Below, one piece after another: positions 36,720-50,558 of a DNA stretch of 64,000 nt. The notes below the pieces were generated by a model. That model searched no databases and was not told the origin of the DNA. It saw only the letters and a list, made by a program, of their open reading frames with translations. A program made the position numbers and the translations under genes. Within the stretch, counting starts at the first letter, position 1; every line of letters starts with the position of its first letter. The stretch is from Saprospiraceae bacterium (lineage in GTDB: Bacteria > Bacteroidota > Bacteroidia > Chitinophagales > Saprospiraceae): assembly GCA_027488935.1 (NCBI GenBank), contig JAIYAP010000016.1, forward strand, positions 1-64,000. Direction: 5' to 3'.

Positions 36720-38773
36720 ATGACAGATCAACCCTACATTCACCGGGATATTTCCTGGTTATCGTTTAATTACCGCGTTTTGCAGGAAGCCAAGGATACG
36801 GCGGTGCCTTTGCTGGAGCGTTTGAAGTTCCTGGCCATTTATTCATCCAACCTGGATGAGTTTTTCAGGGTGCGGGTAGCCAATATTCGCAACTTGAAAA
36901 AGGTAGGTAAAAAGACCAAAGCGGAGTTGGATTTTGACCCGCGTGCCTTGTTGCGCGAAGTTCATATGATTGTAAATCGGCAACAGGAGGAAGTTTCAGA
37001 GATTTTTCAACGTCAGATTGTGCCGGAATTGCGTCGGCACAACATCAATATATTACGTCGTCTGGAGTTGAATGCAGAGCAGCGGCAGTTTGTGGAGAAT
37101 TATTTTCACAGCAATTTATTGCCGTTTGTGATGCCGGTTTTGTTGGTGAAGCATCGGATACGGCCTTTTTTGGCTACTGCGCATTTATATTTGGCGGTAC
37201 ACCTGCGTTTGCGCAAGCGTCCGTTGGCCGAAAGTGAATATGCTTTGGTGAAGATTCCTTCAGATCAATTGCCACGTTTTGTAAAATTGCCTTCTGTGCC
37301 GGGTCATCATGATCTCATCATGTTGGATGATATTGTGCGGAATTCAATTTCCTGGTTGTTTCCGGGGTATGAGGTACAAGATACCTATTCGATCAAGCTA
37401 ACGCGCGATGCGGAGTTGTACATTGACGATGAATATTCGGGTGATTTAGTTCAAAAGATTAAATCCAGCTTGCAAAAGCGACAGGTTGGTCCAGCCAGCA
37501 GGTTTGTGTACGACCGGGAGATGCCTGCGCACCTGCTCGCGCACCTGCAGGAGACGTTTGAGTTGGGTAAAAACGATATTTTGCCGGAGGGGCGTTACCA
37601 CAACAACTTCGACTTTTTCAAGTTTCCGGATTTCGAGATGTCGTATTTGAAGAATAAGGCATTGACCCCTTTGCATCACCCCACGTTGTACCATGCAGAT
37701 GATCCGTTTGCGGTAATCCAGGAAAAAGACCAAATGATGCATTTCCCGTACCAATCGTACGAAGGGGTGATCAACTTTTTTGAAAAGGCGGCGGTTGATC
37801 CGAATGTTACCCATATTAAGGTGATTCAATACCGGGTGGCGCGGCACAGTCGGATTTTGGCTGCGTTGATGGAAGCGGTAAACGCGGCAAACAGGTATCG
37901 GCTTTTGTAGAAATTAAAGCCCGGTTTGATGAGGCGGCGAATTTGGAATGGGGCGAAAAACTGGAAAAAGCGGGCGTTCGGGTGCATTATTCTTTTCCAG
38001 GCGTGAAGGTGCACTCCAAGTTATCCTTGATACGGCGGCTTGAAAACGGGGAGCCCAAGTTGTATTGCTACCTATCGACGGGCAACTTCCACGAAGAAAC
38101 GGCCAAGATTTATTGTGATTTTGGTCTGTTTACAGCCGATCCGCGGCTTACTTCAGAAGTAAGCACGGTATTTACCTTTTTGGAAAACATCAAACCGCCC
38201 AAGCAGGAGTTTTCCCATTTGTTGGTGGGTAAATTCAACTTGCGGCCGGGACTGTACAAATTGATCGACAACGAGATTGATGCTGCCAAACGTAATGAGC
38301 GTGCAGAAATGGTGATTAAGTTGAATAGTTTGGAGGATAAGGACATGATTAAGAAGTTGTACGAGGCTTCTACGGCGGGGGTGAAAATTCGTTTGATCAT
38401 ACGCGGTATTTGTTGTCTGGTGCCGGGCATTCGCGGCATGAGTGAAAATATTGAAATTATCAGTATCGTCGATCGGTTTTTGGAGCATGCGCGGGTGTTT
38501 GTTTTTCACAATGGCGGCGACGAGCGTATATTTTTGTCTAGTGCCGATTGGATGGAACGCAACCTGACCTATCGGATAGAAACTACTTTTCCAGTGTATG
38601 ATCCGGATTTGAAAACGGAGATCAAGGAAATGTTGGAATTGCAGTTGAATGACAACGTTAAAGCGCGGTATATTGATCGGTTCAATTTGAACGAGTATCG
38701 CAAGATTAGTACGGATATTCCGGTGCGTGCACAGTTGGAAACGTATTTTTATTACAAAAGAAAATTGGAATAA
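36720..38773 (+). CDS. ppk1: Polyphosphate kinase 1, split by a one-base frameshift
   Basis: PPK1 polymerises ATP gamma-phosphate into polyphosphate. Frame 1 (36720-37910) has the N-terminal domain (YIHRDISWLSFNYRVLQEAK), the head domain and the start of the catalytic domain, then hits TAG at 37908. The rest continues in another frame to 38773 with GVKVHSKLSLI (catalytic His), STGNFHEETA, LIIRGICCLVPG and the closing SSADWMERNL (second catalytic region). The expected family text NAGKQVSAFVEIKARFDE is restored by one extra G at 37886-37887 (GCGGC read as GCGGGC). Repaired length is 684 residues, normal for the family. Both halves are otherwise intact and family-like, so a sequencing error or a very recent mutation is likelier than old decay. 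Confidence 0.9.
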
Positions 38774-38911: not shown

Positions 38912-38984
<73 letters not shown>

Positions 38985-39102: not shown

Positions 39103-39185
39103 GCCCGGGTGGTGAAATGGTAGACACGAGGGACTTAAAATCCCTTGGCCTCACGGCCGTGCAGGTTCGAGTCCCGTCCCGGGCA
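39103..39185 (+). tRNA. tRNA-Leu (anticodon UAA)
   Basis: An 83-nt cloverleaf with acceptor GCCCGGG/CCCGGGC, D-loop GGTGAAATGGTAGACAC, anticodon stem AGGGA/TCCCT with loop CTTAAAA, a long variable arm (TGGCCTCACGGCCG), and T-arm GCAGGTTCGAGTCCCGT. The discriminator is A at 39185; CCA is not encoded. It reads UUA (and UUG by wobble). Confidence 0.96.
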
Positions 39186-39477: not shown

Positions 39478-40929
39478 ATGTGGCTGACAAGCATGTTTGC
39501 AAATCCATTAATCAAACGCTTTATAGACAACCATCTCTGGTGGATTGTTCAGGCTATAGCGTATGCGGTTTTTGCATTTATGATTGGCAAATTGATTGGT
39601 AAGGGCGGCATGATGGTTGCGATTGTACTGATTGCGATTCCGATCGTAATTTTTTTTCTGGCATTTCTGTTGATGAATCCGGGGGCCGCATTGGATGGTT
39701 CGATGATTGTGGGTTTTTTCTCGGCGGGCATTACCCGGTATGTTGTAGCGCCTTGGGGATTAGCGATGGATGGGTTTTTATTTATAGGCTGGCTCGCCCT
39801 GTTTTTTAAAAAATTCAGGGATACCGATTGGTCGCCTTTAAGAAATGACGTGATGATGGTGGCGATGGTGTGGTATGGGCTGGTTATCCTGGAGCTGGCC
39901 AATCCGGAGATGAATGGGGTAGAGTGTTGGTTTTATGCGATGCGGGGGAATGGATTTTACCAGGTATTGTCGTTTGGGCTGGTATTTATGTTATACCGAG
40001 AGCAGCGTTACTTGGACCGTTTTTTGAGTTGGACCATCATTTTATCGCTCATTGGAACGGCTTGGGGGTTTCGGCAGATGATTACCGGGGTGGATGAGGC
40101 AGAAGCGAAATGGCTGTATGTAGATGGTTTTGCGCTCACGCATATGTTGGCTGGCGTATTGCGCGTATTTTCGTTTTATTCGGATGCTGGGCAGTTTGGT
40201 GCATCCCAGGCGCATGTTTTTGTGGTGTGTGCGATTATCGCGTTGGGGCCGGTATCTACCAAACAACGCATTTGGTACGGAACAGGGGCCATATTTTGTT
40301 TCATTGGTTTTGCGGTATCGGGTACGCGGGGGGCCTTGGCAGTGCCTGCATTGGGAGCGGTGACCTATTTGGTGGTGAGTAAGAACTTTAAAATCTTGAT
40401 ATTAGGCCTGGCCATGTTGGGCAGTGTGTTTTATGTGTTAAAATACACCAAAGCCTTTCAAAGTGTAGAGCAGGTAAAGCGGATGCGGACGGCCATGGAC
40501 CCGGAAGATGCGTCTTTTCAGGTGCGGTTGAAAAATCAGCGCACTTTTGCCCGCCACTTGGCTACCCGACCTTTTGGGGGGGGTATTGGGGCGGCAGGTT
40601 ATTGGGGTTTTCGCTTTAAACCAAACAGTTTGCTGGCGAATACGGCCACAGACAGTTATTATGTGAAAATATGGGCAGAGACCGGCATTATCGGGATTTG
40701 TTTGCATTTGTTTATGTTCGGGTGGTTCGTTGGAAAAGGAGGTCAGGTCGTCTGGAACCTCAAGGACCCCGTACTTCGGGTTAAAATTGCCGGTTTGTAT
40801 AGCGGTATGACGGGTATCATGTTTGCCAGTTACGGCAACCAGGTGTACAGTCAGTTACCAACCGGTATTTTGATGGGTATCAGTATCCCCTTGATATTCA
40901 TGGCACCGCATTTCGACAAACACAATTGA
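39478..40929 (+). CDS. O-antigen ligase/polymerase family membrane protein
   Basis: This 483-residue protein has about twelve hydrophobic helices and a large loop before the last helices with RPFGGGIGAAGYWGFRFKP, the type of periplasmic loop found in WaaL/Wzy (O-antigen ligase family) proteins. It should either ligate or polymerise lipid-linked glycan on the periplasmic side. A TATATTTG at 39463-39470 would start transcription almost at the ATG, so translation may instead begin at Met6 (39493, MFANPL). It opens a same-strand polysaccharide cluster that runs to 50558. Confidence 0.85.
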   Translation: MWLTSMFANPLIKRFIDNHLWWIVQAIAYAVFAFMIGKLIGKGGMMVAIVLIAIPIVIFFLAFLLMNPGAALDGSMIVGFFSAGITRYVVAPWGLAMDGFLFIGWLALFFKKFRDTDWSPLRNDVMMVAMVWYGLVILELANPEMNGVECWFYAMRGNGFYQVLSFGLVFMLYREQRYLDRFLSWTIILSLIGTAWGFRQMITGVDEAEAKWLYVDGFALTHMLAGVLRVFSFYSDAGQFGASQAHVFVVCAIIALGPVSTKQRIWYGTGAIFCFIGFAVSGTRGALAVPALGAVTYLVVSKNFKILILGLAMLGSVFYVLKYTKAFQSVEQVKRMRTAMDPEDASFQVRLKNQRTFARHLATRPFGGGIGAAGYWGFRFKPNSLLANTATDSYYVKIWAETGIIGICLHLFMFGWFVGKGGQVVWNLKDPVLRVKIAGLYSGMTGIMFASYGNQVYSQLPTGILMGISIPLIFMAPHFDKHN

Positions 40930-41003: not shown

Positions 41004-42284
41004 ATGACAACGTTTGTATTGGTACTCAATTTACTCCTCCTGCTTTATTTGGGCTGGGGAGCGCTTTACCAGTTGACCTTTGCGGTGGCGGGTATTTTTT
41101 ATCGTCCGGTGAAGGTAATTCCAACCCCTTTAGACAGCCATTTGGGCGATTTTCTGAAGATCAAAGTTTTTATTCCGGCCTATCGGGAAGATGTTGTAAT
41201 CCTGCACACGGCAGGAGAAGCACTCAAGCAACAATACCCGCACGCACAATATCGGGTGGAGGTCATAGCCGATCAATTGCAGCCGGAAACCCTTCAAAAG
41301 TTGCGCGCATTGCCCGTTGGGGTTACAGAAGTACATTTTGAAAAGAGCACCAAGAGCAAGGCGCTGAATGTTGCCTTGCATACATCGACCAACGATGTGC
41401 ACAACATAAATTTTGAACAGGGGGCCGCTGCCGGTGTAGGAAGCGCAGGCAGCCCCCCTCCTTTTTTTGAACCGGATATTGCGGTGATCCTGGATGCGGA
41501 TAATGTGATGGCGCCTGATTTTTTACAACGGGTCAACCATCATTTTCACCAGGGCGTACGCGTGTTACAAGGGCAGCGAGCCGCTAAAAACCAGCAAACA
41601 GGCATGGCTTTATTGGATGCTGCGAGTGAATCGGCCAACAACCATATCCTTTGTCGCGGCCATCGCGTATTGGGTTTGTCTGCTCGGTTAGCAGGCAGTG
41701 GCATGGCCTTTGAGTACGCATTTTTCAAAAAAGCCATGTCGGGCATTGATGTGGTGGGAGGTTTTGACAAGGCCCTGGAGTTGTACTGCACAGAAAATGG
41801 CGTAAAAATAGCCTACGACGAGCTGGCCATCGTGTACGATGAAAAAGTGAGTGCTTCGGCTTCTTTTGCGCGTCAGAGAAGTCGTTGGATTGCTGCGCAA
41901 TTCGATTTTGCAAAACAGAATCTGCCCAAAAGTATTCCGGCGCTTTTGCGCGGCAACGTAGATTTTTTCAATAAATCGATTCAAATGGCGCTTCCGCCGC
42001 GTTTGTTGTTGCCTGGTTTATTGTTTATCGGTATGATCCTGAACGCAATGGCTGGATCTATTTGGGTGTGGGGCTGGGCTTTTGCTTTGGTGGCCAATGT
42101 GTTGAGTTATGCCATTGCCTTGCCGGGCTTTGTATTTGCTTATAAAAACATGCATTTGTGGTTGCAAATACCGGTTGCGTTTTGGGCAACCATTCGGGCG
42201 ATGATGCGCATGAAAGAGGCGCGCAAAAAATTCATTGTCACGCCCAAAACCGTCATTCATACCAATCCGGAGCAGCCGGTTTGA
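41004..42284 (+). CDS. Family 2 glycosyltransferase, membrane-anchored
   Basis: This 426-residue GT2 enzyme has an N-terminal helix (LVLNLLLLLYLGWGALYQLT), a GT-A catalytic domain and C-terminal helices (from about 330). Catalytic motifs are VFIPAYRED, AVILDADNVM (DxD) and RQRSRWI (QxxRW), as in processive or polyprenyl-linked GT2 enzymes. Between the nucleotide-binding half and the DxD lies an extra stretch of ~22 residues (INFEQGAAAGVGSAGSPPPF) that is low-complexity and encoded by GC-rich sequence; it looks like an insertion kept in frame. Product is unknown. Confidence 0.88.
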   Translation: MTTFVLVLNLLLLLYLGWGALYQLTFAVAGIFYRPVKVIPTPLDSHLGDFLKIKVFIPAYREDVVILHTAGEALKQQYPHAQYRVEVIADQLQPETLQKLRALPVGVTEVHFEKSTKSKALNVALHTSTNDVHNINFEQGAAAGVGSAGSPPPFFEPDIAVILDADNVMAPDFLQRVNHHFHQGVRVLQGQRAAKNQQTGMALLDAASESANNHILCRGHRVLGLSARLAGSGMAFEYAFFKKAMSGIDVVGGFDKALELYCTENGVKIAYDELAIVYDEKVSASASFARQRSRWIAAQFDFAKQNLPKSIPALLRGNVDFFNKSIQMALPPRLLLPGLLFIGMILNAMAGSIWVWGWAFALVANVLSYAIALPGFVFAYKNMHLWLQIPVAFWATIRAMMRMKEARKKFIVTPKTVIHTNPEQPV

Positions 42285-42323
42285 TTTTCTAACACAAAAT
42301 ATTCGCTTTAAAATCAGTTCGTT

Positions 42324-42461
42324 ATGGGAGAAGGAATGCCTTGGAACATTATCATGATTTTTTTTGTGCTGGGTGCTTTATTGGGTGTCAATGCCGGAAA
42401 AAATGAATTGATTCGGCGCGATGCCATCCCCAAAAAAGATGGGGAGCAACCTTACGATTAA
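42324..42461 (+). CDS. 45-residue single-helix membrane protein
   Basis: A small frame between the GT2 and GT4 genes encodes MGEGMPWNIIMIFFVLGALL, then GVNAGKNELIRRDAIPKKDG and EQPYD. It has one membrane helix and a charged cytosolic tail. It sits 39 bp after GT2 and 17 bp before GT4 on the same strand, so it is probably cotranscribed. It may be a small partner of a membrane glycosyltransferase, but no family is recognised. Confidence 0.6.
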   Translation: MGEGMPWNIIMIFFVLGALLGVNAGKNELIRRDAIPKKDGEQPYD

Positions 42462-42478: not shown

Positions 42479-43693
42479 ATGAAAATTCTGTTTATCTGCA
42501 AAGCCCTTCCGCCCGAGGTTTCCGGTGGTATTCAAACCCATACCTGGAAACTGTCGGAATGGCTGCAAAAGCTTGGCAATGAGGTGCATATCCTTACATC
42601 GGGCCGATTTTTAGGTTCCGAGCAGCGTGAAATGCGGGAAGGCATTCAATTAATTCGGCTCCCTTATTTTCCGGGGCGCAAGTTGCCTTTTTTGTCCAAA
42701 TGGGCCGAAGAATGGGCGTTTAGTGTAGCCACCCAAGCCTGGCTAAAACGGAACGCAGCCGGGTATGACATCGTGCATGTGCAGGGCCGCAGTGGTTTTG
42801 CTTTTCCGGGTTGTCAGGTACAAGTCCCGGTTGTTACCACTTTTCACGGGCTCATTGGCGTTGAAAACTACCGGGCTACACAGGGCGTAAAAGGCAGTTG
42901 GTCGGATCGTTACCATGAACGTTGGGCAACCAAACTGGAGCACCGCGCTTTGCACCATTCGGACGCGAATATTGTGGTGAGCCAGGAAATGCGCGATGAG
43001 TTGGACCGTATTCATCCGACCGATGCGACCCCGATTTACATCATTCCAAATGGAGTAGATGTGCCTAAATTGCCCGAAACGGCCCCGGATGTGCGTTTTA
43101 ACACCTTATTGTTTATTGGTCGCATTGTACCGATCAAAGGTGTTTTTGCTTTAATTGAAGCCATGCAGCAAGTGCATGCATCCATTCGCCTGGTGATGAT
43201 TGGTGCGGGTGCGAGCAGGCCCGAGTTGGAGAAAATAATTGCCGCAACAGGTTTGAAGGACCGTGTGCATTTTACGGGCGTATTGGATCAGGCGGGTGTA
43301 TTTGGGTGGATTCAGCAGTCCTTTGCGCTGGTATTGCCATCGCGGCATGAGTCGCAGGGCATCGTATTGTTAGAGGCCAATGCTTGTAAAAAACCGGTGA
43401 TTGCCTCGCGTATTGACGGCATTACCGAAGTTGTGACGCATGGTGAAAACGGATTATTGACCACGATGGATGTTCCCAGTGAATTGGCTGGGCATATCAA
43501 CTGGATGTATGATCATCCGGCAGAGGCTGCACAAATGGGGCAACGCGGTCAGGAAATTGTAAAAGCCAAGTTTTCCTGGGAAAAAATCGCTTTAGAAACG
43601 ATCGCTTTGTACACACGGCTGATTCGGACCAAGCAAAAAGCAGGTCAGGTGTCTGGCAAACCAGTTGTAAATGATTTAAAACCAGTTGTTTAA
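42479..43693 (+). CDS. Family 4 glycosyltransferase
   Basis: This 404-residue GT-B fold enzyme has an N-terminal domain starting ICKALPPEVSGGIQTHTWKL with the Gly-rich acceptor loop, and a C-terminal donor domain with LLFIGRIVPIKG and the E-x7-E motif (SRHESQGIVLLEANACKKP), all as in GT4. It is a retaining enzyme using a nucleotide sugar. It lies between the small membrane protein and the flippase in the polysaccharide cluster. Confidence 0.93.
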   Translation: MKILFICKALPPEVSGGIQTHTWKLSEWLQKLGNEVHILTSGRFLGSEQREMREGIQLIRLPYFPGRKLPFLSKWAEEWAFSVATQAWLKRNAAGYDIVHVQGRSGFAFPGCQVQVPVVTTFHGLIGVENYRATQGVKGSWSDRYHERWATKLEHRALHHSDANIVVSQEMRDELDRIHPTDATPIYIIPNGVDVPKLPETAPDVRFNTLLFIGRIVPIKGVFALIEAMQQVHASIRLVMIGAGASRPELEKIIAATGLKDRVHFTGVLDQAGVFGWIQQSFALVLPSRHESQGIVLLEANACKKPVIASRIDGITEVVTHGENGLLTTMDVPSELAGHINWMYDHPAEAAQMGQRGQEIVKAKFSWEKIALETIALYTRLIRTKQKAGQVSGKPVVNDLKPVV

Positions 43694-43726: not shown

Positions 43727-45049
43727 ATGAAGTTAGGAGCAATTCAGAAATTGGTGCAAAAAGTGATGGGCAACCATGCGCTGATGGCGAGTTTGGTACA
43801 ACAAGCATTTGCCGTACTTCAGTTTGTGGTAGCGGCACGTTGTCTTACGCCCGATGCGTTGGGCAGTTGGGCCATGTTTTTGACCTTAATTTCGTTTATT
43901 GAAATGGCGCGGGTAGGGTTAATTCAGGCGGCATTGGTCAATTTTTTTGCCAAGCATGCAGTTTCCGAGCAGTCCATAATCGGAGGGTCGGCCCTGGGTT
44001 TGAGTTTAATTTTTAGTGTGGGCTCGTCGGTGATTTTGGCCCTGATTGGCTTCGCGCTGCGTCAGGTATGGCTGTTGCCCGAATTGCCGGGCTTATTGGG
44101 CAGTTATATCGGTATTGGCGTACTGATTGCGATATTAAGGTGGTTTGATGCGGTACAAATGGCGCGCATGGAGTTTGCCGGTATTTTGCGCGGCAGTTGG
44201 ATCTTCGGCATTTCGTATTTAGCGTTTGCCTTGACCTATTTTTTTGTGTACAGCGGCCTTACACCCTGGGTATTGTTGATGCTGCAGGTGCCCGCGTTTG
44301 TATGTACGATTTTGTTGCGTAAAAACAGCATAATCAGGGCTTTGATGGCGATTCGGGTGCGTTGGGATTGGATTCGACAGATTTGGCAGTATGGTCGATT
44401 TGGGTTGGGGACCAATTTGAGTTCGATGTTGTTTCAGCGGGTGGATGTATTGTTGTTAGGGGCTGTGGCGACACCTGCGGCTTTGGCGGCCTACAACATA
44501 GCGACCCGTTTGATTACCTGGCTAGATTTGCCCTTAAATGCGGTATCACAGTCTATATTTCCAAAAATTGCAGCGGAGTATTATTCGAAAGGCATGGCGG
44601 CGATGACCCAAAAATGTGAAGAAGCGACCGCACAATTATTATCTATTGCGATTCCACTGACCTTGGGTACGTTCATTGGAGCAGAACTCCTGGTGTATAT
44701 GCTGGCGGGCGACCGATATCCGGAGGCGGCTACGTTTTTGCGGATATTGGTCCTCGCTGGGCTTGCGAAGCCTTGGGGGCGGTTGTTGGGCTTGGCCTTA
44801 GATGCATCGGGTCAGCCCCAATGGAATTTCAGGATGGTGAATTTCAGTTTAATTGTAAATTTGGTCCTACTGTGGGTGATGGTACGTTGGATGGGGGTGA
44901 CTGGTGCGGCACTTGCGTCCACGTTGGGTATTTTTATTACCACCATTTCGGGGCGATTGTACTTTTTGCGGCGTATACCGATGAGTGGGGTTCGTACCCT
45001 ACATGCGGTATGGCGGTATTACAAGGGGTTCGGAACAGCGTTGCGCTAA
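43727..45049 (+). CDS. Polysaccharide flippase (Wzx/MVF-like)
   Basis: This 440-residue protein has about twelve to fourteen hydrophobic helices and fits the oligosaccharide flippase family (PST/Wzx). The N-terminal AVLQFVVAARCLTPDALGSW and the mid segment RVDVLLLGAVATPAALAAYN, then DLPLNAVSQSIFPKIAAEY, are characteristic. It should move lipid-linked glycan units to the periplasmic side, upstream of the ligase/polymerase. It follows the GT4 gene by 33 bp, and its downstream gap of 121 bp separates it from the signalling genes. Confidence 0.9.
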   Translation: MKLGAIQKLVQKVMGNHALMASLVQQAFAVLQFVVAARCLTPDALGSWAMFLTLISFIEMARVGLIQAALVNFFAKHAVSEQSIIGGSALGLSLIFSVGSSVILALIGFALRQVWLLPELPGLLGSYIGIGVLIAILRWFDAVQMARMEFAGILRGSWIFGISYLAFALTYFFVYSGLTPWVLLMLQVPAFVCTILLRKNSIIRALMAIRVRWDWIRQIWQYGRFGLGTNLSSMLFQRVDVLLLGAVATPAALAAYNIATRLITWLDLPLNAVSQSIFPKIAAEYYSKGMAAMTQKCEEATAQLLSIAIPLTLGTFIGAELLVYMLAGDRYPEAATFLRILVLAGLAKPWGRLLGLALDASGQPQWNFRMVNFSLIVNLVLLWVMVRWMGVTGAALASTLGIFITTISGRLYFLRRIPMSGVRTLHAVWRYYKGFGTALR

Positions 45050-45170: not shown

Positions 45171-45710
45171 ATGAAAGGTATCGTATTTACCGAGTTTTTA
45201 AACTTGGTGGAGGCTAAATTTGGCTACGAAATGGTAGACCAGATCATAACTGAAAGTAATTTACCTTCCAAGGGTATTTATACGAACATTGGCACCTACG
45301 AACATTCCGAGATAGTTCAATTGGTCACTGCTTTAAGTAAGCACACGAACATCCCCGTTCCAGATTTGTTAAAAATATATGGTATCCATTTTTTTCCAAT
45401 TTTGGGCAATGGTTACAGCCATTTTTTGACTGGGGTAAAAAGCGGGTTTGAGCTGTTAGAAAGTATTGAACATTACATTCATGTTGAGGTGATCAAATTG
45501 TATCCGGATGCAGAGTTGCCTCGTTTTGAAAACAGGCGCTTATCACCCAATGTTTTGGAAATGATTTACCATTCAAAGCGCAAGATGGCCGATTTTGCGG
45601 AAGGTTTGATGCGTTCCGCTTTTGATCATTTTGGAGAAAAAGTTGAAATTGAGCGCGAAAATTTGGAGGCAGATGGTTCGAGTGTGCGGTTTACCATCAC
45701 CCAAATATAG
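45171..45710 (+). CDS. H-NOX haem nitric-oxide/oxygen sensor
   Basis: This 179-residue protein is a stand-alone H-NOX domain, the bacterial relative of the sensor domain of soluble guanylate cyclase. It starts with the family MKGIVFTEFLNLVE. The proximal haem ligand is His104 in IHVEVIKLYPDAELPRF, spaced from YP exactly as in guanylate cyclase beta-1. The haem-propionate motif YxSxR is YHSKR at 133-137. Bacterial H-NOX proteins bind NO and regulate a neighbouring kinase or cyclase. Here a hybrid histidine kinase starts 23 bp (ATG) after its stop. The absence of an obvious distal-pocket Tyr favours NO over O2 sensing, but this is only an inference. Confidence 0.93.
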   Translation: MKGIVFTEFLNLVEAKFGYEMVDQIITESNLPSKGIYTNIGTYEHSEIVQLVTALSKHTNIPVPDLLKIYGIHFFPILGNGYSHFLTGVKSGFELLESIEHYIHVEVIKLYPDAELPRFENRRLSPNVLEMIYHSKRKMADFAEGLMRSAFDHFGEKVEIERENLEADGSSVRFTITQI

Positions 45711-45733
45711 CGATTGGATTGGATAATAGAAGC

Positions 45734-48250
45734 ATGGAAGCATTGGAGTTATTAAAACGAAGGGTAGAGCGCGAAGTTGCGGCTCGAAAACTGGCAGAAG
45801 CGATCATGGAGCAGAAAGCCCTTGAATTGTATTATGCCAACCAGGAGTTGCGCAACCTGAACGGCAGTTTGGAGCAGACGGTAGCGGAGCGTACCCATGA
45901 TTATATTGCGGAACAATCACGTTTGAGGTCTTTGATCACGAATTTGGATTCGGGGGTTTTGTTGGAGGATGAGCATCGGAAGGTGATGTTGGCCAATCAA
46001 ATGTTTTGTGATCTGTTTAATATTCCGGTGGAGCCTGAGATGATGCGGGGGCTGGATTGTACACAGTCGGCCGAGGTAAACAAGCATTTATTTGCTGATC
46101 CTGCGCAATTTGTACGACGGATTGATGAATTGTTGGAAAACAGGCAGTTGGTTACCGACGAGGAGTTGGATTTGGCGGATGGCCGGGTATTTCGGCGCAC
46201 TTATGTACCCATTTTTGAAGGAAATGATTATTTGGGGCATCTTTGGCGTTATTCGGATGTAACCGATGAGGTTCAGGCGCATGAAACCCTGCGTCATAGT
46301 GAAGATAAATACCGGCGGATCATTGAGAACATGGAATTGGGACTGATGGAGGTGGACAATGATGGTCGGATTGTTTTGCCTTATCCGCGTTTTTGTGCCA
46401 TGTTGGGGTATGATCCGGAGGAGTTACGCGGTCAAATGGCCACAGAAATATTGCTGCCACCGGAGTATTTACCCGTATTGCAACAGCAAGCGGTTGATCG
46501 CTTGGCAGGTAATGCAGGCGTATATGAGGTGCCGATCATTAAAAAAGACGGTAATTTGATGTGGGCGATGATCTCTGGGGCGCCGATTATCAACATCCAT
46601 GGTACGGTTACGGGTAGTATTGGCATCCATTACGACATTACCCAGCAAAAAACCTTGTACCGCGAGCTGGAGGAGTCGAAAAAACGCGCAGAGGAAGCGC
46701 AAGAGGCTGAAAAACAGTTTTTGGCCAATATGAGCCACGAAATTCGGACACCCTTGAATGCGATCATCGGGATGGCGCATTTGCTGATAGATACCGACCC
46801 ATCCGAAGAGCAAAAGGAGTATTTGTCGATCCTAAAGAACAGCGCAGAGATGTTGCGTACCTTGATTTCGGATGTTCTTGACTTATCGAAAATCAGGGCA
46901 GGTAAAATGGAGGCCCAGGAGAAAGAGTTTGATTTGGTTGCCCTGGTACAGACCCTTGCAAAATCCGTGCAATTGCGGATGGAAAGCAAATCGGTTGAGG
47001 TGAAGGCCGATATAGATCCGGGAATTACCCATTTGGTGTTGGGAGATGATTTGTTATTGAACCAGATTTTGCTTAATTTGCTCGGAAATGCTGAGAAATT
47101 TACGGCCGAAGGGGAAATTGGGATACGAACCAAAATATTGTCGGAGCCACATGAAACACCGATGTGGGTAGAATTTTGTGTGTATGATACCGGCATCGGA
47201 ATTCCGCCAGAGAAGCATGATCTGATTTTCCAGACTTTCCGGCAGGTAGATGGCGATACGCGGCGCAAATTTGGCGGTACAGGTTTGGGCTTGGCAATTA
47301 CCAAGCAATTGGTTGAGTTGCAGGGCGGTAGTATTCGGGTTGAAAGCACCCTTGGGGTAGGGACTCAGTTTTACATAAACTTACCGTATTTGAACACGGG
47401 GGTTGTGGCCGAGCAGAATACCCCGATTATGGAGCAAATGCAGCTCAATTCGGATGGAAAACGCATTTTGGTGGCAGAAGATAACGCGATGAATCGCAAG
47501 TATATTGACACCTTATTGCGCAAGTGGAATATTGAGCACTTTTTTGCCCATAATGGTCGGGAGGCATACGAGATGTGTTTAGAAGACCATTATGACCTTG
47601 TGTTGATGGATATTCAGATGCCGGAAATGGATGGTTACGAGGCCTGTCAAGCCATTCGGGACTTGCCTGGCCTGAACAATAAAACCCCCATCATTGCGCT
47701 TACGGCATCTGCCATGCTTTCGCAGCGGGATAAAGCCTTTTTCGCCGGCATGAATGATTATTTGAGTAAGCCATTCAAACCCTTGCAGTTATTTGAAAAA
47801 ATCTGCTTGTATATCGACTCAAATGAAATAGAAACGAATATGCCCACTCCGCAGGAATTTACTTTCGACAAGCGCTTGGACACCGAGCTGTTGGAAACCA
47901 TGTATGGCGACGATCTTGATTATGCGTTTGAAATGTTTGAGGCGTTTCGGGATAATGTGCCGAAAGAATTCAAAAGCATACAACCTTTGCTTGATGGAGA
48001 AAAATGGCCAGAAGTAGCACGACTTTTGCATAAGATAAAACCGTCCTTTGGGATGGTGGGGTTGAGTGAACTGGAAAAGGCGTTGGAGCAAATGGAGCAA
48101 AGTGCCAAGAACCAGCCCAACAAAGCAAATTTGCATACCATGTTTATGCAGGTGCAAAATTTGTTTGATGTAGGCACCCGCATCATCGACAACGAATACA
48201 GTAAATTGAAAAAAATCATTTCTAATCCAACTCATACGCCACCACAATAG
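45734..48250 (+). CDS. Hybrid histidine kinase, H-NOX partner
   Basis: This 838-residue soluble kinase has an N-terminal coiled coil (about 5-65), two PAS-like domains (about 70-180 and 185-305), HisKA with phospho-acceptor His335 (FLANMSHEIRTPLNAIIGM), a HATPase domain (DTGIGIPPEKHDLIFQTFRQ, FGGTGLGLAI), a receiver domain with Asp626 (LVLMDIQMPEMDGYEA) and a C-terminal Hpt domain with His766 (LLHKIKPSFGMVG). It has no membrane segments. A TTG at 45719 is an alternative start. Layout matches HnoK-type partners, whose autophosphorylation is controlled by NO-bound H-NOX. The Hpt should pass phosphate to a response regulator; two are encoded directly downstream. Confidence 0.93.
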   Translation: MEALELLKRRVEREVAARKLAEAIMEQKALELYYANQELRNLNGSLEQTVAERTHDYIAEQSRLRSLITNLDSGVLLEDEHRKVMLANQMFCDLFNIPVEPEMMRGLDCTQSAEVNKHLFADPAQFVRRIDELLENRQLVTDEELDLADGRVFRRTYVPIFEGNDYLGHLWRYSDVTDEVQAHETLRHSEDKYRRIIENMELGLMEVDNDGRIVLPYPRFCAMLGYDPEELRGQMATEILLPPEYLPVLQQQAVDRLAGNAGVYEVPIIKKDGNLMWAMISGAPIINIHGTVTGSIGIHYDITQQKTLYRELEESKKRAEEAQEAEKQFLANMSHEIRTPLNAIIGMAHLLIDTDPSEEQKEYLSILKNSAEMLRTLISDVLDLSKIRAGKMEAQEKEFDLVALVQTLAKSVQLRMESKSVEVKADIDPGITHLVLGDDLLLNQILLNLLGNAEKFTAEGEIGIRTKILSEPHETPMWVEFCVYDTGIGIPPEKHDLIFQTFRQVDGDTRRKFGGTGLGLAITKQLVELQGGSIRVESTLGVGTQFYINLPYLNTGVVAEQNTPIMEQMQLNSDGKRILVAEDNAMNRKYIDTLLRKWNIEHFFAHNGREAYEMCLEDHYDLVLMDIQMPEMDGYEACQAIRDLPGLNNKTPIIALTASAMLSQRDKAFFAGMNDYLSKPFKPLQLFEKICLYIDSNEIETNMPTPQEFTFDKRLDTELLETMYGDDLDYAFEMFEAFRDNVPKEFKSIQPLLDGEKWPEVARLLHKIKPSFGMVGLSELEKALEQMEQSAKNQPNKANLHTMFMQVQNLFDVGTRIIDNEYSKLKKIISNPTHTPPQ

Positions 48251-48342
48251 GTTTGGTACAAGGATCTTGGCTGTTTTTAAACACCGAGGGACCAAACCCA
48301 ATGCTACGGCACTTCAAAATTGCTTCACTTAATCAAAAAAAC

Positions 48343-49056
48343 ATGCTTCGATGTATAATTGTTGATGACGACATGATGGCCCGAAAGAGCCTCGAGCGTT
48401 TGTGTGCCAAACATGAACGGCTTGAGATGAAGGGATCTTTCGAAAAGGCCAGTGATGCCATTGAATTTTTGGAAAAAGAAGAGCAGGATACAGCCATTGA
48501 TTTGATTTTTTTGGATGTTGAAATGCCGGAAATGTCGGGTATTGAGTTTTTAGACCGCATTCCGGTGATGCCGATGGTGATTTTTACCACCTCCAATTCA
48601 GATTATGCATTTGAAGCGTTTGAATACAAGGCCGTCGATTTTTTGAAAAAGCCCATTTCTTTGCCGCGTTTCGAACAATCTATCCTGAAAGCCATCGAAG
48701 CTAGTCAGACCAACCAGGCAAATACCGCCGAGGCCCTGGCCAAAGCGAATGAAATTTTTGTTCGGGAAGATGGTCGGTATATTCGTGTTTCCTGCGATGA
48801 TATTTTGTTTTTTGAAAACGTAGGAGACTATGTGCGTATCAAAACCATTGCAGGGCAGCACATCATCCATGGTACCTTAAAAGCCATCGACGAAAAACTC
48901 AATGATCCACGTTTTTTAAAGGTACACCGCAGTTTTATTGTGCACCTTTCTAAAATCAAAGACATTGAAGAAAATACGCTGGTAATTGACAAAACGGTCA
49001 TCCCGATTAGTCGAGCCAACAAAAGCGAGCTGATGAATCGGTTGAAAATTTTATAA
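48343..49056 (+). CDS. LytTR-family response regulator
   Basis: This 237-residue regulator has a receiver domain (about 1-120; acidic pocket DDD at 8-10, phospho-acceptor Asp58 in LIFLDVEMPEMSG, Lys in FLKKPIS) and a LytTR DNA-binding domain (about 135-237, FVREDGRYIRVSCDDILFFE...RFLKVHRSFIVHLSKI). The frame is open from 48253, but the ATG at 48343 begins the receiver. It is the likely target of the adjacent hybrid kinase. LytTR regulators often control extracellular polysaccharide genes, which would fit the flanking cluster. Confidence 0.92.
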   Translation: MLRCIIVDDDMMARKSLERLCAKHERLEMKGSFEKASDAIEFLEKEEQDTAIDLIFLDVEMPEMSGIEFLDRIPVMPMVIFTTSNSDYAFEAFEYKAVDFLKKPISLPRFEQSILKAIEASQTNQANTAEALAKANEIFVREDGRYIRVSCDDILFFENVGDYVRIKTIAGQHIIHGTLKAIDEKLNDPRFLKVHRSFIVHLSKIKDIEENTLVIDKTVIPISRANKSELMNRLKIL

Positions 49057-49308
49057 AATAAGCAAAATTTAACTTGTTTGCTTGTTTTATTTGTTCCAAA
49101 AGACCTATCTTTAATCGATTTTTAGTCTTTCATATTTTTTATCCCCCCTTCGAAGACTGTCATTTTCTGTAAGCACTATGTCCTCCCAGCGAGGAAATTC
49201 AATTGATCAAGACTGGTAATTTCAACAAGCTGTATGCAATACGCATGCATGTTTCTTGACCTGTTTTATACGTGCATTTCAAATTAAACACTGCTTAATG
49301 TTTTTGTC

Positions 49309-49761
49309 ATGAATCAAAAACCTGACTTATTGCTTGTAGATGACGCTCCCATGATGACGCGTTTTCTCTCCTTGTTTTTTGCCGAGCAATACAGGGTAAC
49401 CAGTTGTCTCAATCCGGAGGAGGCAATCGATCTAATCCGCAAGGGTTATTTACCTGATATCATTGTAAGCGACCTCGATATGCCACAGATGTCGGGCCTG
49501 GTGCTTACCAAGGTCTTGCGGCAGCTCATGCCCGATTGCCCATTGGTGGTCGTAAGTGGCTTGAAAGAAAGCAAGCACCGTTTGGCTGCCCTGGAAGCAG
49601 GTGCGGATGACTTTTTGGCGAAGCCTTTTCACCCGGCCGAATTACAGGCACGTTTGGAAAACTTACTGCAACGCAGCGAGCAAAAAAAAACGGAATCGGC
49701 TCAGCCACAAGCACCTGCGCCTAGTAGCAAGGTGAAAACGCCGCCATTTTCCCTTTCATAA
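49309..49761 (+). CDS. Single-receiver response regulator
   Basis: This 150-residue protein is a CheY-like receiver (acidic residues DD at 11-12, phospho-acceptor Asp55 in VSDLDMPQMSG, Thr/Ser in VVVSGLKES, Lys in FLAKPFHP) with a low-complexity Pro/Gln/Ala/Ser tail of about 30 residues and no output domain. It is 252 bp after the LytTR gene, with a possible promoter (TTG 49082-49084, TATCTTTA 49106-49113), and 41 bp before the sugar transferase gene. It may act as a phosphate shuttle for the hybrid kinase or bind a partner in the polysaccharide machinery. Confidence 0.87.
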   Translation: MNQKPDLLLVDDAPMMTRFLSLFFAEQYRVTSCLNPEEAIDLIRKGYLPDIIVSDLDMPQMSGLVLTKVLRQLMPDCPLVVVSGLKESKHRLAALEAGADDFLAKPFHPAELQARLENLLQRSEQKKTESAQPQAPAPSSKVKTPPFSLS

Positions 49762-49802: not shown

Positions 49803-50558
49803 ATGACTACGAACAGATCCAAACCCTTTTATGATTTTTTTAAAAGGACCAGCGATATCGTGGCATCGGGCATCATTTTGATCCTGATCAGTCCCATATT
49901 GCTCGGTATTGCCATCGCTTTAAAACTGGAATCGCCAGGCGCGCCCGTTTTTTACAGTTCCAAACGGGTTGGGCGCAACTATCTGGTGTTCAATTTTTTG
50001 AAATTTCGGTCTATGAAGCCCAATTCGGACCAATTGCTGGCTAAAATGCAGCACTTGAACCAGTATGATGCGCAAACGGCGGCGGCACCTAAACAGGTGG
50101 TAGAAGCCGCGCCCTCTGGTGTGATGTTGTTTTCGGATGAGGGTTGGATTCCGGAAGAAAAGTTGATTGCGGATGCCAAGAAAGTTGAAGAAAAGCCTTT
50201 CATGAAAATCACCAACGATCCGCGTATTACCAAGGTGGGCCATTTTATTCGCAACACCAGCATGGACGAATTGCCCCAGTTGATCAATGTGTTGCGTGGT
50301 GATATGTCGCTGGTAGGAAACCGTCCGCTGCCGGTGTACGAAGCCGAGCAACTTACCACCGATGAGGCTGTGGAGCGGTTTTCGGCACCAGCCGGTATTA
50401 CAGGTTATTGGCAAGTAACAGACCGCGGCAAAAAAGGGGTAAGTGCCGACAGTCGGAAGCATTTGGACGTGGAGTATGCGCGTCGGTATTCGTTTTTTCT
50501 TGATTTGTGGATTTTAGTCAGAACTCCGATGGCAGCCTTACAATCGGCCAACGTATAA
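49803..50558 (+). CDS. Initiating sugar transferase (PF02397 type)
   Basis: This 251-residue protein is a polyprenyl-phosphate hexose-1-phosphate transferase that starts glycan assembly. It has one N-terminal helix (about 18-40, IVASGIILILISPILLGIAI), a basic/aromatic segment KRVGRNYLVFNFLKFRSM, and the catalytic core KITNDPRITKVGHFIRNTSM, DELPQLINVLRGDMSLVGNR. Between FRSM and KITND lies an extra segment of ~65 residues rich in Gln/Ala/Glu, which is longer than in many homologues. It lacks the large N-terminal domain of WbaP. It closes the polysaccharide cluster and is the expected first enzyme in the pathway. Confidence 0.92.
   Translation: MTTNRSKPFYDFFKRTSDIVASGIILILISPILLGIAIALKLESPGAPVFYSSKRVGRNYLVFNFLKFRSMKPNSDQLLAKMQHLNQYDAQTAAAPKQVVEAAPSGVMLFSDEGWIPEEKLIADAKKVEEKPFMKITNDPRITKVGHFIRNTSMDELPQLINVLRGDMSLVGNRPLPVYEAEQLTTDEAVERFSAPAGITGYWQVTDRGKKGVSADSRKHLDVEYARRYSFFLDLWILVRTPMAALQSANV

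Follow-up and report, generated by a model that had tools for sequence, protein, structure and literature searches.

A family of small M-P-W membrane proteins adjoins a membrane glycosyltransferase in predicted Bacteroidota surface-polysaccharide clusters

The window analysed here, a stretch of 64,000 nucleotides (nt) from a Saprospiraceae bacterium, carries a series of genes in the order Wzy_C-type gene, GT2 glycosyltransferase gene, small gene, GT4 glycosyltransferase gene, flippase gene, H-NOX gene, hybrid histidine kinase gene, response regulator genes and initiating sugar transferase gene. Its principal features are as follows.

39478..40929, + strand: Wzy_C / O-antigen ligase or polymerase type protein, 483 aa (Pfam); the alternative partner of the small protein
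41004..42284, + strand: membrane GT2, 426 aa (PF13641, E 9.3e-26; DADN and QRSRW motifs); the most likely partner
42285..42323, + strand: gap of 39 nt between the GT2 stop and the small ORF (142 nt in genome G023, 12 nt in genome G004)
42324..42461, + strand: small single-pass membrane protein, here called the MPW protein (ATG start, 45 aa, helix predicted)
42479..43693, + strand: GT4 glycosyltransferase, 404 aa (PF00534, E 2.5e-34), 17 nt after the small ORF
43727..45049, + strand: Wzx-type flippase, 440 aa (Polysacc_synt_3 / MatE)
49803..50558, + strand: initiating sugar transferase, 251 aa (Bac_transf)

From known pathways, we infer that these surroundings constitute a Wzx/Wzy-type surface polysaccharide cluster, and the Bac_transf initiating sugar transferase probably acts in the same pathway, despite the four signalling genes that lie in between. 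These genes (45171-49761, + strand) encode an H-NOX (haem-NO-binding) protein, a hybrid histidine kinase, a LytTR response regulator and a lone receiver, and their location amid polysaccharide genes suggests NO-responsive control of the surface polymer. The wider relative loci L171-L174 have parts of the window core in common, and L173 additionally contains genes for an outer-membrane efflux-type protein, a methyltransferase and another GT2. The upstream DNA of L171, L173 and L174 encodes a large protein that appears chain-length-like by eye; the L173 protein, the one that was scanned, has no Pfam match.

An Rfam search of 38.8-46.0 kb returned only two tRNAs at the gathering score. The tRNA genes (38912-38984 and 39103-39185, + strand) lie just upstream of the polysaccharide genes and are a possible insertion point for the patchily distributed cluster, the GT2 being found in 3 of 42 genomes of the same genus. 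Further upstream, the polyphosphate kinase gene is split within C-terminal domain 1 into two + strand frames (36720-37910 and 37943-38773; 396 and 276 aa); the matching frames are open in G023 (689 aa) and G004 (715 aa), and the split is either a recent break or a sequencing error. At the other end, the + strand segment 50604-61518 encodes two adjacent DUF4114+DUF4842 proteins (678 and 710 aa), and a 1939-aa ORF after this pair has a weak HYR match only. In G023, the gap preceding the small gene (L020, 2361-2502) contains about 100 extra bases, including GGCCTTCGGCC, that are absent from the window, and a 21-base piece of this extra DNA had no match in the window.

The ORF at 42324..42461 specifies the protein MGEGMPWNIIMIFFVLGALLGVNAGKNELIRRDAIPKKDGEQPYD, which starts with MGEGMPW and has a charged tail at the other end. 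It contains one hydrophobic stretch, the best 19-residue segment of which spans residues 4-22 (Kyte-Doolittle 1.96), and the helix is predicted at about residues 4-23; the tail holds five K/R residues. The preliminary description of this DNA had depicted a 45-residue single-helix protein with a charged tail, placed between GT2 and GT4 genes with short gaps, and this picture holds, the gaps measuring 39 and 17 nt. Because ORFs this short are frequent by chance, with 145 ORFs of at least 30 aa overlapping 36-50 kb of the window, length proves nothing and conservation decides.

Comparison of the window with its nearest relative, G023, revealed that 44 of the 45 residues are identical. The 11 nucleotide differences are distributed 1/1/9 over the three codon positions and correspond to nine synonymous codons and one non-synonymous codon, with dN and dS (NG86) of 0.009 and 0.47 for the small ORF, as compared with 0.014 and 0.25 for the GT4 gene and 0.029 and 0.24 for the GT2 gene. 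The more divergent G004 protein retains 86% identity over 42 residues (differences 6/5/17 by codon position; dN 0.13, dS 0.90). Of 11 small-gene pairs given to the script, eight have dN below dS; among the remaining three, one was missed by the script, one is identical and one has a dS that was not computable. Pooled over pairs, which share species and are not independent, the nucleotide changes number 69/36/149 by codon position, and the codons comprise 96 synonymous and 87 non-synonymous changes, which are near equal over the divergent pairs; the argument for selection is therefore drawn from dN against dS and from the close pair. The small-gene frame is under purifying selection, and the ORF almost certainly encodes a real protein. 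The preliminary description had proposed a dN/dS comparison and had named a lack of frame conservation among relatives that carry the cluster as the result that would speak against the gene; dN proved far below dS between the window and G023, and the frame is kept in both other same-genus genomes with the GT2 as well as in other families.

We collected 31 members of the small-protein family from the genus of the window and, beyond it, from further genera and families of Bacteroidota. They comprise 28-58 residues and carry the motif MPW (29 of 31), LPW (one) or MPF (one), although the searches and scripts partly targeted the M-P-W motif itself. Each of the 31 has a single hydrophobic stretch; K/R is absent ahead of the helix and occurs at least twice behind it, and even distant relatives retain M-P-W, the lone hydrophobic helix and K/R in the tail. 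Conservation is lowest in the tail. In much of the window's family, (M)(L)GEG or a similar sequence precedes MPW, and other members begin at MPW. Three members (L133, L158 and L140) were missed by the script pattern and identified by eye, and the sequences from G790, G678 and a Cytophagaceae metagenome-assembled genome (MAG) were entered by hand.

The first profile, an alignment of six sequences from behind or near GT2 genes, matched 10 of 395 phylum genomes, of which G000, G174 and G189 were accepted, G174 and G189 being further relatives gained in this way. Apart from these three and L048, the phylum matches lacked an M-P-W small frame. The 49-aa MPF-like ORF of L048 was dropped, as it overlaps a 306-aa ORF on the opposite strand and no comparable GT2 adjoins it on its own strand. 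With rebuilt profiles, and with long-frame matches dropped, the genomes with accepted members numbered 9 of 396 for the order, 8 of 345 for the class and 19 of 298 for the family, in draws that overlap one another. The order search at E <= 0.05 matched 170 of the 396 genomes; the nine accepted matches have E <= 1.7e-5 and short frames, nearly all of the unaccepted matches lie in long frames, most often of about 405-460 aa, and a few weak short-frame matches were dropped unread. The class search matched 16 genomes, the eight that were not accepted matching in frames of 410-438 aa, and eight of the 27 matches listed for the family genomes lie in frames of 416-432 aa and were likewise not accepted. 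The G1123 match falls in a 472-aa frame in one reading and in a 51-aa frame in another. Weak matches within the genus (E 0.12-0.94) contained no M-P-W small frame.

The three rejected order matches that were read (L058, L062 and L064) are the last helix of ABC permeases, which we take to be of the FtsX/MacB type and which have the pattern P-W...G...G in common with the small protein. The resemblance of this last helix to the small-protein profile (P-W..I...G...G) is probably convergent.

A Pfam and NCBIfam scan of eight members gave no significant family match, in keeping with the earlier remark that such proteins are easily missed in annotation; at E <= 1, Pfam returned seven weak matches for these eight members, none of the PgaD/IcaD type. 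A PDB profile search with the small protein yielded chance-level matches only (photosystem II protein I, E 0.11 and worse), and a literature text search for the letters GEGMPW found no match. Among the matches listed in literature searches on small membrane proteins near glycosyltransferases and on Saprospiraceae polysaccharide clusters, the titles and abstract beginnings do not describe the family. The family is new and undescribed, in that no name, model or paper was found in the searches made, and the type to which it belongs, a very small one-helix protein that assists a membrane enzyme, is already known.

The small gene lies directly behind a GT2 gene in 28 of the 31 members, including all 19 small-frame matches from the 298 family genomes. 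In G1017 and the Cytophagaceae MAG, an acyltransferase-like gene stands between the two, and in G143 a Wzy gene immediately precedes the small gene and the GT2 gene lies further downstream. In G174 and G383, the GT2 and small genes overlap by 4 nt on the same strand, suggesting translational coupling. The culturable Agaribacillus aureus (L023) carries the GT2 gene and the small gene together with a GT4-like gene. The GT4 gene is optional, since a Pfam-confirmed flippase gene directly follows the small gene, with no GT4 gene in between, in nine loci (L055, L057, L059, L150 and L156-L160). The glycosyltransferase partner proposed at the outset is thus narrowed: the linkage favours the GT2 over the GT4.

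Within the genus, strong small-gene matches (37 genomes searched) occur in the same three genomes that carry the GT2. Across the order, a related GT2 (E <= 1e-60) is present in 51 of 396 genomes, nine of which have the small gene, and all nine carriers are among the 10 closest GT2 matches, a ranking that is biased because the GT2 profile was built partly from small-gene carriers. On a tree of 85 GT2 proteins, 28 of them with the small gene, presence and absence require four changes, whereas 1000 label shuffles require 23.8 on average and 18 at minimum, indicating that the small gene follows GT2 lineages, with losses or gains at few points. This sample is non-random, as 15 of the 28 positive rows came from small-gene searches; an earlier tree of 70 rows, mostly from GT2 searches, needs three changes for 13 positive rows. 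Both trees were made by a quick method. G1236 was left out of the 85-protein tree, its small gene being identical to that of G696, and the Cytophagaceae MAG was scored without the small gene, a recount with the MAG added also giving four changes. In seven of the 57 loci scored without the small gene, some short ORF with an ATG start and a hydrophobic product lies no more than 300 nt behind the GT2 gene, in no case with the MPW pattern. GT2 relatives near the positive lineages lack the small gene in G786, G693 and Owenweeksia, and a GT2 of this kind can therefore do without it. The GT2 positions that distinguish small-gene loci from the others follow the tree and were not used as evidence.

The DxDN and QRxRW motifs of the GT2 (the latter comprising Q291, R292, R294 and W295) are invariant in 16 rows, and its best solved-fold matches are cellulose synthase (BcsA) and hyaluronan synthases. 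This fold does not imply processivity, and in a Wzx/Wzy cluster the GT2 may add a single sugar. We modelled the GT2 and the small protein, read as one chain, by AlphaFold2 for the window and for G780, from alignments of 21 and 19 rows, few of which include the small part. The GT2 is modelled well (pTM 0.78 and 0.82 for the two chains) and the small protein forms one helix in both models, with a pLDDT of about 42-58 and no confident docking on the GT2; a helix of such low confidence speaks neither for nor against contact.

The small protein probably has a role in the polysaccharide machine, and for the GT2 as its main partner we put the chances at about even. The best reading, which we hold with the same evenly balanced confidence, is by analogy that the protein spans the membrane once and serves the membrane GT2 as an accessory subunit, resembling PgaD and IcaD without homology to them. 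The presence of K/R only after the helix, together with the positive-inside rule, suggests an N-out/C-in topology, and the protein is predicted to reside in the inner membrane with its MGEGMPW end outside and its K/R-containing tail in the cytoplasm. It would probably be co-translated with the GT2 of cellulose/hyaluronan-synthase fold embedded in the same membrane, and its helix would most likely pack against the transmembrane part of that enzyme, whose stability, membrane geometry or full activity would then need the small protein. The setting of this putative joint action would be the assembly of a Wzx/Wzy-type surface polysaccharide.

PgaC activity depends on PgaD (PMC8461298) and IcaA activity is significant only with IcaD (PMC4322838), so that a small membrane protein (PgaD) or product (IcaD) is needed for the activity of a membrane GT2. 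The MPW gene likewise adjoins a membrane GT2 with a QxxRW-type motif in 28 of 31 cases, and the MPW protein may stand to its GT2 as PgaD does to PgaC and IcaD to IcaA, here with one helix and an unrelated sequence. Among the eight members scanned there is no sequence match to PgaD or IcaD, and all 31 members have one hydrophobic stretch. PgaD and IcaD, by contrast, have two transmembrane helices, and they serve a synthase-dependent pathway without Wzx and Wzy, unlike the MPW clusters. Coding, conservation, gene position and co-inheritance with certain GT2 lineages are observed directly, and the PgaC/PgaD and IcaA/IcaD precedents make the MPW protein as a GT2 helper the simplest reading.

Alternatively, the small protein could be a regulator of polymer length that binds Wzy or a chain-length/copolymerase protein, its adjacency to the GT2 reflecting operon order only. 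The model for this role is Klebsiella RmpD, which binds Wzc and sets capsule chain length, and which has about 50 residues, a putative N-terminal transmembrane helix and K/R in its C-terminal tail, in a capsule-type pathway (PMC7512549, PMC10294653). RmpD has a positively charged C-terminal half, and MPW tails all hold K/R, with a net charge of 0 in the window protein and -3 in G1159; within the rmp operon, the gene for RmpD has rmpA and rmpC on either side, whereas the MPW neighbours are Wzy, GT2, GT4 and flippase genes; and MPW members have no NCBIfam match and possess a conserved M-P-W end. A Wzy-type gene lies upstream in 23 of 28 small-gene loci, including all 11 with at least 1 kb of upstream DNA, but in only 9 of 36 loci scored without the small gene (at least 1.37 kb upstream), one of which, L026, really has the small gene one gene further on; the other 21 of these 57 loci have less than 320 nt of upstream DNA in this count, and the Wzy profile was built from six proteins, three of them Pfam-checked (window, L173 and L171). 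In G143, moreover, Wzy directly precedes the small gene. As the Wzy gene is nearly as well linked as the GT2 gene, an RmpD-like role is a serious rival. Nevertheless, the immediate upstream neighbour is the GT2 gene in 28 of 31 members, and Wzy and GT2 genes occur without the small gene in L025, L028, L030, L032, L037, L039 and L040. Furthermore, the + strand ORFs of at least 130 aa in 36.7-50.6 kb of the window all match other Pfam families, and hence no chain-length gene lies beside the window small gene. On balance, we regard a role in polymer length as rather unlikely.

Less probable still is an adaptor for the assembly or targeting of the whole inner-membrane complex (GT2, GT4, Wzx and Wzy), in which the tail would recruit the soluble GT4. 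GT2- and GT4-like genes do flank the small gene in the window, L044, L047, L053, L054, L056, L135, L152 and L153 (Pfam-checked in part), but the nine loci in which the flippase gene follows directly have no GT4 gene in between, and the tail that would do the recruiting is the least conserved part of the protein; we consider this explanation improbable.

Other small proteins provide looser parallels. DltX is a short protein encoded amid cell-surface polymer genes, in an operon where it is essential (PMC5541007). It is Gram-positive, however, the eight MPW members scanned have no Pfam or NCBIfam DltX match, and no dlt genes are among the identified window neighbours. The dlt operon is not known to contain a GT2. 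CydX and KdpF are very small membrane proteins that form part of large membrane enzymes (PMC10903887), in their case a quinol oxidase and a potassium-transporting ATPase, and MPW members have no such Pfam or NCBIfam match. An independent small membrane toxin, or a stress peptide, travelling with the cluster would be similar in size and in its single helix, and GhoT/OrtT gave the only match to a type I toxin family in Pfam, which is non-significant (E 0.2) and confined to one of eight members; the fixed position behind the GT2, the purifying selection and an inheritance that tracks the GT2 lineage make this explanation very improbable. Finally, chance short ORFs are abundant in the region, but an accidental ORF, or a relic left between two genes, would hardly keep 44 of 45 residues, have 9 of its 11 nucleotide changes in third codon positions and possess recognisable relatives in several families, and its probability is negligible.

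Returning to the accessory-subunit reading, its strongest form, in which the 28-58 residue M-P-W family would be an obligate single-helix subunit of particular Bacteroidota GT2 lineages in Wzx/Wzy-type clusters, is one that we advance only tentatively and consider doubtful. If it is true, a GT2 of the cellulose/hyaluronan-synthase fold would need a PgaD-like helper even outside synthase-dependent pathways, and expression or reconstitution of such a GT2 alone would fail without an obvious cause. The small gene, conserved, lacking a family model and recurrent in Bacteroidota surface-polysaccharide clusters, is a candidate for a missing subunit, and the family offers a small, testable case of a one-helix protein that may tune a membrane glycosyltransferase or a polymer-length system.
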